A stretch of 64,000 nt of DNA, taken from contig MDYQ01000448.1 of NCBI GenBank assembly GCA_003024175.1, positions 157,362 to 221,361 of the forward strand. The letters are read 5' to 3'. This document shows positions 1-59,863 of this stretch, in pieces. The translations under genes were made by a program, and so were the position numbers. Numbering within the stretch: the first letter of the stretch is position 1; each line of letters begins with the position of its first letter. A model generated the notes under the pieces. The model was not told the origin of the DNA. It was given only the letters and a program-made list of their open reading frames with translations, and made no database searches. This DNA is from Planoprotostelium fungivorum. Lineage: Eukaryota; Evosea; Variosea; Cavosteliida; Cavosteliaceae.

Positions 1-3000
1 AACTCGCGGAAAACTCGCGGAAAAGGTATCACCTTGTCGACCATCTCTTCTCTCTCCTCCTTCGTGGTGTCCCTCGGTAATCTACAACGAGCCGAGAAAT
101 CGACGGCCTCGGCCACCGTTGTGAATGGATAGTGACAATCCGTCTGTTCTACGTAACCGACGAGCCTGTGGTAGAACTTGTCTGGTTCTTTACCGTTGAC
201 CAAGATGTCACCCTCTATTTTTCCGACATTTTTCCGTTGGGCGAGGACGTCCAAGAGGGTCGATTTACCGGCACCCGAAGCACCCATGAGGGCGAGCAAC
301 ATTCCTGGAAATTTTCGGCGGGAGTTTTAAATTTCGAAAGAATCTCACCTGGTTTCACGTAACCGTTGATACCGTTGAGCAGCTTCTTTTCTGAACCCTT
401 CACGGGCACGGTGTAGACTATATTCTGGAACACCATGACAGCTCCCTCTTTCACCGCATCCTTGTGCTCCTCCTCACTCTCTTCCTTCTCTTCTTGTTTC
501 TCTCCATTCTTTGTCGACGTCAATCGTCGACGCCGAAATTTCCCAGAAAACTCACATCTTTAGACGGAGATGCCGCACCACCCCCGCTTGCCGAATAGTT
601 GAAGTGTCTGAATCCCCAGTATGTGAACAAGAGGAAGAGTACATAGTAACCAGCCAGACCACCCCAATAGCCCCACCTGACGCCGTACTGCTTGCTGAAG
701 GAGAATTCTCCCGCGACGAAATCGGCTCCACCGGTGGGACCAGAGTACGGGCACACTTGCGCGCCTGCACGGCGTGTGAGACATTTCACGGAAATTTCGA
801 TGAGATCTTACCTCCGAATCCACCGAGTGCGACGGGCACGTCCAACAGAGGGCTTCCCAATGGAGGAACCAGTTGAGACGTCGTACAGTACAACGTGATA
901 TCATCAAAGTTGTTGATCATCATGGCTTCTATACCGTAGTGAACGAAGGAGATCCAATAGGCCCAGATCCAAGGCTCGGGTATCTTCTGCTTCGGTACCA
1001 AGAAACCAGAGAAGAGGATGTAGATGGCAATCATAGATGACCCCACGAGAGACCCTGTCGTCCGTTCAGCGAAATTCCCGTGAAATTTCGCGGAGATGTC
1101 TCACCTATGACGGGGTTGGGTAACGCGGCACCGCAAGCGCGGGAAAGCATGGCACAGCAGAGGGAGATGGAGATGAGAATGAAGAGGAAGAAGAAATATC
1201 TTCCGGCCTCGTTATTCAGCCCGGCCATCCAATAGACGATGGAGCCGAAGACCACCGTCTCAACCAATGTCCCAGGAATACTCCATATGATGCTCGAAAT
1301 GTAATAAGGAAATACGGCGTAATATTTTGCACCTGGGAAGCGTTGTAGACGGATGAAAATCGGCGAAATTTCACCTCTCTGCCGGTAGTAGATCTCTCGT
1401 TCTCCGAACAGACGGGGGATGTTTGCTACAGATGTGAAAGTGAGATGGGCTATGGTGAAGAACATGAGGCCTGCCACTTGGGATGCATCCAGTTGAGATT
1501 GATCTCTTCTGAAGAAGAGTGCACCTGTCGATGTGTCACCATGGATGATCATGTGATGATGATCATCATCATCGTACGGTGATCGTGATCGCGATGAAGA
1601 AGATCGTCGCGATCAGGTGATGTCACGTATGATATCGTACGTACCCAAGATGAGAGCGATGAAGATCTCGTTGAGAACTACGATGGCCAATCCAACGAGA
1701 TCTCTCTTGAAATTGATGAAACCTCTCCACACGTTGATCTTGATCTGTCCCCAGCGACTCAGTGGATATTTCCTCCTCGGTTTCGACTCCACTTTGTCTT
1801 CTTCTATCTATCGCGTGTCAGGCCCAGGGAAGGAGTCTCAATCAAATGAACCGTTGTAGATGGATGGATGTCATCACCTTGACGTCCTTGTTCTTCTTCT
1901 TTGTCTTGTGGGCGGTTAGGTCAGCTGCTTCTTGTTCGTTGAAACCTGCGGGGGTGAGTTTCGTTCGAATGAAGCGTTGTAGATCACCATCTTCTCTACC
2001 CTGACCCTCTCCCCTGGGAGAGGCTACGACAGCCACGGCGGTGTGGTGTTTCTTGGAATGTTCCTCAGAATTTTCCTTGGAATTCTCCAATTCTTCTCCG
2101 TCTTTGTGATATTTCGCCGGGTTTTCCATGTGTTCGTCCATCTCTCCTTGTCTCTCCTTCGCCATATCTGATTCCCTCCAGCACTTGACGAAATCTAAAA
2201 AAGTGAGAAAAATCCCACCGTCTACAAACGTGTAGACCCTCACCCTCTCGATTGTGCGCCTTGACTTTCTCTTCTTCTCCTTCTTTGGCGGGAAACTTTT
2301 CAGGATGGTCGACAATCTCCGACAAAAACTCCGACACCGAATACGTCGATGGGCAAAAGTAACCCAGATCGTTAAAGTATTTCTCCGCCTTCAAAATGGG
2401 TCCCTTTTTCCATCAATATTTCCGTCTCGTTGTAGACGCTCACCTGGTAGGCGATCTGTCCTCCGGAGAGGATGATGAGAGTATCGAAGAGAGACAAGAG
2501 GTCCCATGAGGGTTGTAGAAGGGCACACAAGACAGGAGTGCCCAATCCACTCAATGTCTTTAAACTCTTTCCTACGTCGAGTGACGAAGAAGAGTCGAGA
2601 CCGGTCGTCGGTTCGTCCAAGAGGAAGAAATTGGGACCTGGCGAGTTGTAGAACGGTCCCAAAAAATGGCGAGTTGTAGATGAGACTCACCCTTGACCCA
2701 TTCGACACCGATGGTGACTCTTCTCTTCTCTCCACCGGATACACCTCTTAATGATTCACCACCGACCATCGTGTCTGAGACGTGCTTGAGGCCAAGCAGC
2801 TGCAAGACTAAATCGACTCTCTCGTTCTTCTGCTCGTCGGAGTAGGTTTCGGGCATCTACAACGGTTCAATTGAATGCGACGGACGTATAGGAGTGAAAC
2901 CTGACACCAGGCGGCGAACTGCAGGGTCTCTTTCACGGTGAGGCGTGGGTAGTGTAGATCTCCTTGTACACAGTAAGAGACGTTGCGGTGCCATCTACAA

Positions 3001-4286
3001 CTCGTCAGGAGGTCACATACGTACGTTACGTACCTGTTATCCTGAGGTTGACCGTTGAGGGTGACGGTACCGGAGATATCACCTTGTCTTCTTCCGGCTA
3101 AGATGTCGAATCTATAAATAGAATGAGGTGAGGCTTGTATGGGAGGATGATTGTAGATGGAAAATAAAAGTCGAATGAAAAAAATTTAATCTTTCGTGAA
3201 GAGAGGATGATGATGATTGGAAGATGAGATGATGGAAGATGAGACGCACAAGGAAGTCTTTCCACTTCGAGGTGAACCCAAGATGGCTGTCATCTCTCCC
3301 GGATGCATGATGAAACTGATGTTGTCCAGAACGGTCCTACTCGAGTCAACACGAACCATGAGAGAGTCACTCTTAGAGGACAGACGATGACTCACATCTC
3401 CCGCTTCTCGCGGTGGATTTGTGGGTGTAAGAAGTCCTTCAGAGAGGGAATGCCCTCCTTCTGCTTCGTCACCACTTTGTAAGTGATGTTGCGAACCTTT
3501 CAGCGTGTGAGTCAATGATGACGAATCGAAAGAATTAAGTCGATTTTCGAAACTTTTCTTGTGGGGTAAGCGTAAGAAAAAGGATGATGATATTCGATGA
3601 GTTACCTCCAAGTATTGTCCCCTCTCAGCCACGTTGTAACGACTCGAGTTCTTCTCTAACCATTCGGACAGCTTCATCTTCTTTCCATCGAATTCGACAG
3701 TGGGTTGAGGTCCAACTTTCGGTTTCTCCTCTCCTTCTTCTACAATCACCGTCAGAATCATTATGATCAGACTGCTCGATGATTTCGAATGGACTTGACC
3801 CACCAGCATCATCGTTCATTTCATCCTGCTCCATCTCGTTGTTGTGATCGTCATTGTTCGGTCCGTCGTCTTTCTCTTCTCGAGGTGATGCAGCTTCTTC
3901 AGGATCTTTCGTTCGATCAGACTTCGTATCACCACCGGTAGCGTTCGGCTGTCGAAACTATCTCCCTTCAACTCCCATCGGTCCACTTCCAATCACCTGC
4001 TCGTGTTGGGGGGCATGATTGCCTCCCATGCCTCCGCCGAGACCTCCCATAGACCCTCCAGTATCAGTCATGCGTTTCACGTGTTCGTGTTGCGTCCAAT
4101 GTGAGGGAGATCGGGGCCGTCTCCGGCCTCGAATCCCGAGGAGAGCTCGTGGAACTCGTAGAAATTTTGCAACCGCTGGGATGGTGATAGAGCGGAATGA
4201 AATTTCAACTCCTAAGTTCCGGTACTTATTGTCCTGCACAGAAGCTCCATCTACTCTGATCGACTTACGTTCCTGAAGAAGCTCAT
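1..4286 (-). CDS. ABCG/PDR-type ABC transporter, 5' part (3' end off left edge)
   Basis: Membrane exporter of the pleiotropic-drug-resistance ABCG family, with two NBD-TMD halves in reverse order. Reading leftward: an acidic, Gly-rich N-terminus; NBD1 with Walker [10 protein letters not shown] near 3270, signature [12 protein letters not shown] near 2730 and Walker [14 protein letters not shown] near 2610; TMD1 (1.6-0.8 kb) with several hydrophobic helices and the [12 protein letters not shown] region; then the start of NBD2 with [12 protein letters not shown] near 270. The product continues beyond base 1, so TMD2 is not seen. At least ten short introns. The start is uncertain: the acidic exon at 3834 has no upstream Met before a stop, but a 48 bp GT-AG intron just upstream joins it in frame to a Gly-rich exon, so I place the start at MSFFRN (4286) through small exons DNKYRNLG and [10 protein letters not shown]. 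Those first exons are less sure than the rest. Substrate unknown. Confidence 0.85.
2638..2690 (-). repeat. ABC-transporter intron containing two direct copies of the TCTACAAC motif
   Basis: A 53 bp GT-AG intron in the NBD1 coding region. On the minus strand TCTACAACTCGCCA occurs twice, 29 bp apart; the second copy forms the acceptor ...CTCGCCAG. The exon sequence on both sides encodes conserved ABC residues ([12 protein letters not shown] upstream, [10 protein letters not shown] downstream), which fixes the intron limits. Confidence 0.8.
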
Positions 4287-59700: not shown

Positions 59701-59759
59701 ACGCGCTCTCCTAGAGTATCCTTTACGATACCTACGTTGTTGACAGCACTGCCCTCCAT
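56523..59759 (-). CDS. MCM6: DNA replication licensing factor MCM6
   Basis: Subunit of the MCM2-7 replicative helicase, acting in the nucleus. Start [20 protein letters not shown] (59759), then [20 protein letters not shown] and VESNYYRF as in MCM6 N-termini. OB/zinc region: [45 protein letters not shown]. ATPase: [20 protein letters not shown] (Walker A), [42 protein letters not shown] (Walker B), [18 protein letters not shown] (sensor 1), [18 protein letters not shown] (arginine finger SRFD). C-terminus: a winged-helix region and [18 protein letters not shown] 56523. About 15 short exons. A fragment of its 3' end is at 10.0-10.26 kb. Confidence 0.96.
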
Positions 59760-59863
59760 CTGCTTTGAACGAGCAGAATGGCGGGAAGGGATGTTGAGCG
59801 AGTCTACAACGAAATATACCATCACCTGTTTTTTCATCACATCGACCCCGAATCGATTCGAAG
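59760..59863. promoter_or_regulatory. Compact bidirectional promoter, MCM6 / mitochondrial uS17
   Basis: Only 104 bp between divergent start codons. It contains one copy of TCTACAACG (59802-59811), which read on the MCM6 strand is CGTTGTAGA and could be the acceptor of a 5'-UTR intron. Confidence 0.5.

Follow-up and report, generated by a model that had tools for sequence, protein, structure and literature searches.

Why should a single short DNA word recur in the tiny introns of an amoeboid genome, and what keeps it there? This question is raised by a 64-kb stretch of Planoprotostelium fungivorum DNA (assembly GCA_003024175.1, contig MDYQ01000448.1, positions 157,362 to 221,361), hereafter the window, which forms the end of a 221-kb contig in a genome of 36.86 Mb and 471 contigs. 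The word is the octamer TCTACAAC, which a first-pass annotation of the window had described as a palindromic element joined at times into the 16-mer TCTACAACGTTGTAGA. The pattern is real, it is genome-wide, and it is tied to introns. The octamer appears 56 times in the window, where 1.65 copies are expected, and 17,887 times in the genome (8,938 + 8,949), against 4,005 (2,020 + 1,985) for the same word read backwards, the control used genome-wide for the octamer, the 16-mer and the dyad treated below. The window also holds one exact copy of the 16-mer and four copies with one or two mismatches (0.01 expected), in agreement with the first reading, and the genome holds 681 exact copies, while the reversed control has none. 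A collection of 257 billion prokaryotic bases contained the 16-mer in 79 stretches, near the chance value of about 60 according to our own arithmetic, and a viral collection contained the word in 13 stretches.

Introns were predicted with an intron-aware gene finder, self-trained on the window plus 200 kb of contig C1; all those discussed here are predictions from this 264-kb sample (<1% of the genome), made without RNA data. The sample yielded 565 introns, mainly of 36–50 nt, with a GTGAGT donor, a CTGAC-like motif 13–16 nt upstream of the end, and a CAG acceptor. Intron size is tight and very short, most introns measuring 37–44 nt with a training-set minimum of 35, and the branch motif stands just 13–16 nt from the end. 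The weights of the splice score were trained leaving out the word-bearing introns, and the middle half of the training introns scores 11.1–14.0. Genes for U1 and U2 of the standard type are present (4 and 14 matches above the cut-off). Some gene models are backed by protein alignment. The window encodes an MCM6, whose closest match belongs to a eukaryote transcriptome (63%), followed by a transcript labelled Phypoly, which we take to stand for Physarum polycephalum (53%), and by Balamuthia (52%), matches that point to a probable amoebozoan host. When its 14 predicted introns were set against five homologues, the first junction, which belongs to an intron lacking the word, carried five extra residues and is slightly misplaced. 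Individual word-bearing introns are backed in the same way in MCM6 and in a kinase domain, where an alignable protein is interrupted by five of them.

The word is concentrated in introns. It is found in 57 of the 565 introns (10%; 58 when the search includes the flanks), whereas dinucleotide-shuffled introns hold it in 0.74 on average and in at most 4 over 100 rounds. Its density is 2.21 per kb in introns, compared with 0.45 for exons; the 250 bp upstream of genes have 0.33, the downstream DNA 0.27 and the remaining DNA 0.22. Among the 27 extragenic words, 9 have an intron candidate with a score of 10 or more. In the window, 22 of 166 introns carry the octamer and 4 of 166 the dyad, so that 25 carry either, which bears out the earlier count of at least 25 introns. 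The accompanying statements that the word lies in most short introns and in nearly every gene were too strong, given the shares of introns just cited and the fact that only 27 of the 106 intron-containing genes of the 264 kb have one or more word-bearing introns.

Two copies of the word can face each other in a dyad whose arms are nearly exact and whose spacing is strictly 4 bp. The genome contains 1,800 exact copies of its core, TCTACA-N4-TGTAGA, compared with 7 for the reversed control, and the inverted pairing noted in the window is borne out. One-mismatch dyads number 540 against 253 in the control. The spacer is free, being ACGT in just 681 of the 1,800. From the exact and one-mismatch counts and the share of ACGT, it follows that the arms have barely decayed (about 1.3% per arm base by our own estimate), in contrast to the loose spacer. 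Pairs at the remaining spacings between 0 and 14 sum to 133 copies against 148 in the control, with no excess; spacing 4 is found in 48 of the first 50 pair places listed, and in 18 pairs of the 264-kb sample, where spacings 0–3 and 5–12 have none. Introns give 62 counts of the exact octamer; its 24 possible single-base variants add up to 42, approximately 32 being expected. These variants number 14 against 18.7 expected for positions 1–5 and 28 against 12.9 for positions 6–8, an excess which may be explained by dyads with other spacers.

Around the octamer, CC(A/G) is preferred before and G after, and the extension NNGYCA follows 3,390 of the 17,887 genomic copies (29 in the reversed control), an excess due in part to the branch motif TGAC of introns that use the word as acceptor. 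A fixed distant feature, as in small-RNA promoters, was sought around 146 octamers, and only positions −4 to +16, and −17 at threshold, emerged; around the exonic octamers, positions −84, −17, −5 and +29 also stand out, without pattern.

In introns of about 40 nt the word occupies two slots. One lies a few bases past the donor and admits both orientations as well as the dyad; the other is the acceptor itself, as GTTGTAG|A. Both orientations are used, as had been remarked for the window, with 21 sense and 19 antisense copies in short introns (a 16-mer adding one to both counts) and a further 17 at the acceptor. The association with introns also holds for 34 of the 681 genomic 16-mers, the first listed, from contigs C1, C2, C4 and C5: the intron that covers them scores at least 10 in 29 cases and at least 8 in 31, compared with 9.9% and 22.3% of 1,500 random stretches. 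Word-bearing introns are as long as the others (means of 41.2–43.5 versus 42.3 nt).

In exons, the word is preferred at synonymous codons. There are 56 exonic octamers, whereas permuting synonymous codons yields 12.8 ± 3.4, or 14 ± 2.7 if the permutation is confined to genes, and 32 of the 56 are made up by the in-frame codons of (I/V/F/L)-Tyr-Asn. Ile-Tyr-Asn is spelled ATC TAC AAC in 18 of 19 cases; missed introns hold one of these 18 sites, plus about five words in other frames. Outside five genes classed by eye as beta-helix, with one missed intron set aside, 6 of 6 such sites use the word. Antisense copies are also in excess (10 versus 0.75, missed introns still included), and exonic words rise with the number of word-bearing introns per gene (rho 0.31, p = 0.007, 74 genes). 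The exonic (I/V/F/L)-Tyr-Asn copies had been inseparable from the intronic ones in the first-pass annotation, since it was made without gene models.

Our best explanation, which we favour tentatively and at somewhat less than an even chance, is that TCTACAAC is the half-site of a sequence-specific recognition element, kept because a factor acts on intron-containing gene bodies. The fuller half-site would approximate CC(A/G)TCTACAAC-NN-G(C/T)CA, and two half-sites may face each other as TCTACA-N4-TGTAGA. We infer that a putative dimeric protein would read the element as double-stranded DNA, with a presumed benefit for transcription or splicing of the host gene. Introns would harbour the word because no coding constraint weighs on their short bodies, and it could be accommodated in the interval from the donor to the branch motif, facing either way or forming a dyad, or at the extreme 3′ end, where TTGTAG| would give the acceptor. 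A broader proposal, which we regard as possible and on the unlikely side, is that the word serves as an address throughout the genome: a dyad of exact arms and strict spacing, read on double-stranded DNA and present in thousands of tiny introns and at synonymous codons, by which a dedicated putative factor marks or builds introns. If true, this would be a kind of element residing in introns yet distinct both from copied transposons and from splicing signals in RNA. No description of the word in introns was found in the open-access literature searched. How introns originate, and why some genomes fill with them, is a long-standing open question, and the word offers a directly testable handle on it, being exact, present in about 10% of the introns sampled, clearly paired as a dyad and seldom decayed. 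The word also suggests that synonymous codons may be subject to selection or biased change by way of a DNA word.

Several observations weigh against recognition by a factor acting on gene bodies. The factor that may bind TCTACAAC is itself putative. Unlike ordinary transcription-factor sites, the word shows no promoter-type enrichment (0.33 per kb upstream versus 2.21 in introns), and first introns seldom bear it (3 of 106). The acceptor slot takes 17 of the 36 sense GTTGTAGA copies, far above what free placement of a DNA word would give, which hints at a role in RNA or in intron origin. Words are clustered per gene and region (dispersion 2.8; of 91 octamers in the 200 kb of C1, 35 fall within C1:180–200 kb), as selection at single sites would not predict. 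Two copies of the 16-mer, L042 and L054, have no good intron candidate. Introns with an internal word have a weaker branch motif (1.72 versus 2.28, p = 0.003), those with the word in the acceptor slot have a lower acceptor score (3.00 versus 3.81, p = 0.0003), and octamer introns show slightly stronger folding than their shuffled counterparts (z −0.50 ± 0.19, 49 introns). The exonic excess, in turn, stems in part from repeated beta-helix proteins, whose sites are not independent, and from missed introns. The weak branch motifs and acceptors, the clustering, the rarity in first introns, the acceptor slot and the folding would be compatible with introns arising through insertion, or with a role in RNA. 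An ordinary promoter element was rejected, the density upstream of genes being too low.

Among the rivals, the one that survives best, although we consider it unlikely, is an origin of the introner type, which the first-pass annotation had also proposed. Very short elements with terminal inverted repeats (about 29–40 bp, with ends TCTACAACNNGCCA and TGACTCGTTGTAGA) would insert in exons, the right end supplying branch motif and acceptor, and only the ends read by the transposase would stay fixed. In its favour, octamers at a spacing of 12–42 form 182 convergent pairs, compared with 1 in the control; in 50 listed sites, a size of 29 bp is found 10 times, 30 bp 4 times, 36 bp 6 times, 38 bp 7 times, and 28 bp never. 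For 15 of these 50, among the shorter ones, the best intron candidate covers the pair in 15 of 15, scores at least 8 in 13, and has the right-hand word as its acceptor in 12. Divergent pairs at a spacing of 0–30 number only 33 (control 3). The clustering per gene and region would also fit, as would the five word-bearing introns of the kinase domain, which stand at a column and phase that three paralogues do not share; yet 4 of the 5 other introns there are unshared too. Direct pairs at a spacing of 4–34 number 563 against 33 in the control, some of them being tandem arrays. Direct octamer runs with regular steps, which are probably tandem arrays, occur at C8:38996–39105 (17 bp) and C42:79203–79594 (mostly 24 and 36 bp).

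Nevertheless, this is not an ordinary introner, because the word-bearing introns share nothing else, no clear target-site duplication accompanies them, and the word is preferred among the synonymous codons of exons, which insertion leaves unexplained. With the word masked, 5 of 53 octamer introns have a mutual similarity match, and samples of other introns, five in number and of the same size, gave 6, 4, 7, 6 and 0, so that copies of one full-length element are unsupported. Target-site duplication was sought in 52 octamer introns: at shift 0 the matches were 3.79 versus 3.78, and across the 17 shifts compared the difference varied from −0.61 (shift −2) to +0.50 (shift 8), with +0.47 at shift −7, values too low to indicate duplication as a general feature. 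Moreover, most words are single despite the convergent pairs, intron length is unaffected, and decayed copies are few. For a 10-kb query aimed at a haplotype or close paralogues, the matches listed had only 66–83% identity, and among those aligned to its best-matching stretch there were no word-bearing introns.

Evidence of target-site duplication has been reported for 49 of 130 introner families and terminal inverted repeats for 72 of 177 (Gozashti et al. 2022, PMC9860276), and that survey does not mention Amoebozoa. Introners resemble the present case in lying in introns, in having, in some families, inverted-repeat ends and a 3′ splice site derived from the end of the element, and in their very uneven distribution. 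They differ from it in that here there is neither full-length similarity nor clear target-site duplication, most copies are single-ended, and exons show a synonymous preference. The introner elements of Amoebophrya are similar in carrying inverted repeats, of 8–20 nt, at the intron ends, and in that only a minority could be assigned to families (Farhat et al. 2021, PMC7789003). However, no family-specific repeat motif was detected in them, they show direct repeats of 3–5 nt over the borders, and most such introns are non-canonical, whereas here a single word serves genome-wide, in GT-AG introns and with no clear direct repeats.

Improbable, in our view, is that the element acts in RNA, with the dyad as a stem of 6 bp and a loop of 4 nt, and with single words as intronic splicing enhancers or acceptor signals in the pre-mRNA. 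The fixed slots, between donor and branch motif or at the acceptor, argue for it, together with the slightly better folding of octamer introns and the weaker branch motif of introns with an internal word. Against it, both orientations are used equally, the 264-kb sample showed no dyad whose stem differs by a single compensated pair, and antisense copies are in excess in exons (counted before missed introns were removed). Donors are no weaker in word-bearing introns (p = 0.90–0.92, three classes), and an enhancer compensating weak donors was rejected on the grounds of this equal strength. The first-pass proposal that a hairpin joins the splice sites is less well borne out than the link to introns: most words are single half-sites and no singly compensated dyad was seen in the 264 kb, although the octamer introns do fold somewhat better than shuffled sequence. 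A hairpin general to introns is unlikely because both orientations occur and other introns have no excess folding, and it was rejected on the latter ground (250 introns without the word, z −0.11 ± 0.07, no clear RNA-structure excess; exon pieces, −0.06 ± 0.07). The nonconventional introns of euglenids also differ from those described here, which are GT-AG introns in a genome with U1 and U2 and have no general hairpin.

Quite improbable is that introns are simply the best-tolerating places for a word which a DNA process such as biased repair, methylation or uptake maintains in many copies across the genome, as with HIP1 of cyanobacteria or bacterial uptake sequences: the word is nearly all-or-none, lies on both strands and biases synonymous codons across gene kinds (the 6 of 6 Ile-Tyr-Asn sites outside beta-helix genes), yet extragenic DNA, which should tolerate it equally, is 7–10 times poorer than introns, and 9 of the 27 extragenic words have an intron candidate of at least 10. 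HIP1 itself is likewise one very frequent word, with single-base deviations at particular positions (Elhai 2015, PMC4390886), and here, too, the exact word is far over expectation while its variants have no similar excess. HIP1 is a perfect 8-bp palindrome, bacterial and linked to methyltransferases, whereas the element described here is a spaced dyad with a free N4, accompanied by half-sites and concentrated in introns.

The word- or dyad-bearing introns of the window are given below; they come from gene models and lie on the minus strand unless stated otherwise. The stretch 3–2856, presumably an ABCG gene, spans five of them: a 42-nt intron with TCTACAAC close to its 3′ end (1333–1374), a 70-nt intron with TCTACAAC (1808–1877), a 49-nt intron with the dyad TCTACA-CGTT-TGTAGA (2195–2243), a 40-nt intron with TCTACAAC 7 nt past the donor start (2404–2443), and a 53-nt intron with two direct copies of TCTACAACTCGCCA (2638–2690). 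They are followed by 40-nt introns with the dyad TCTACA-TCGA-TGTAGA (14788–14827) and with TCTACAAC (15041–15080), a 38-nt intron with the dyad TCTACA-GCAT-TGTAGA (18839–18876), and a predicted 116-nt intron with TCTACAACCCGCCG (19290–19405), whose word lies at 19347 and which includes position 19325, cited in the first-pass annotation. The half-site TCTACAACCTGCCG stands past the donor of a 45-nt intron (19509–19553), GTTGTAG|A fills the acceptor slot of a 39-nt intron (19836–19874), and the perfect 16-mer TCTACAACGTTGTAGA lies in a 40-nt intron (20192–20231).

On the plus strand, GTTGTAGA is found past the donor of a 44-nt intron (29236–29279) and in a 48-nt intron (50663–50710). Back on the minus strand, TCTACAACCAGCCG lies in a predicted 91-nt intron (31588–31678) and in a 53-nt intron (35969–36021), and GTTGTAG|A ends introns of 41 nt (32674–32714) and 55 nt (44139–44193). 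GTTGTAGA is internal to a 45-nt intron (32820–32864), past the donor of a 39-nt intron (40371–40409), and present in another intron of 45 nt (54345–54389); TCTACAAC stands 5 nt past the donor start of a 40-nt intron (37595–37634). In MCM6, a 41-nt intron ends in GTTGTAG|A where the protein is poorly conserved (57080–57120, gene model and protein alignment), a 38-nt intron with GTTGTAGA interrupts a stretch conserved without insertion in five homologues (58120–58157, protein alignment), and a 40-nt intron with GTTGTAGA lies in an alignable, less conserved stretch (58479–58518, gene model and protein alignment).

Of the other places singled out in the earlier reading, 2430, 14807, 18854, 19833, 20212, 32656, 32833, 37625, 44152, 57079, 58135 and 58494 lie in, or at most 20 nt from, a predicted word-bearing intron. 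Those at 2865, 2996, 20825 and 38049–38090 have no modelled intron, although intron candidates scoring 6.3, 10.8, 9.6 and 9.4, respectively, are found there. The last is a candidate 42-nt intron on the minus strand with the inverted arrangement TCTACAACGAG...CTCGTTGTAG|A, and it was modelled as exon, its length being divisible by three.

Other elements were observed in the same sample. A second palindrome, TGACGTCA (often GATGACGTCATC), has 24 sites in the introns of the window and L016–L035, with a density of 0.84 per kb there versus 0.07 away from genes (about 12 times) and 0.33 just downstream of genes. GAAATTTC, at times GTGAAATTTCAC, is also enriched in introns in the same stretches (17 sites; 0.60 per kb versus 0.09 away from genes). 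Predicted receptor-like genes, named by eye from their beta-helix-type repeats, membrane span and kinase domain, occupy positions 42433–47360 and 47794–52759 of the window, and another lies in L034; the positions of the kinase-domain introns mostly differ among these paralogues. A tandem repeat with a 36-bp unit and 2.8 copies lies within a predicted gene at 53190–53289, and a tRNA gene (Rfam tRNA, 58.7 bits) is found on the minus strand at 22308–22392.

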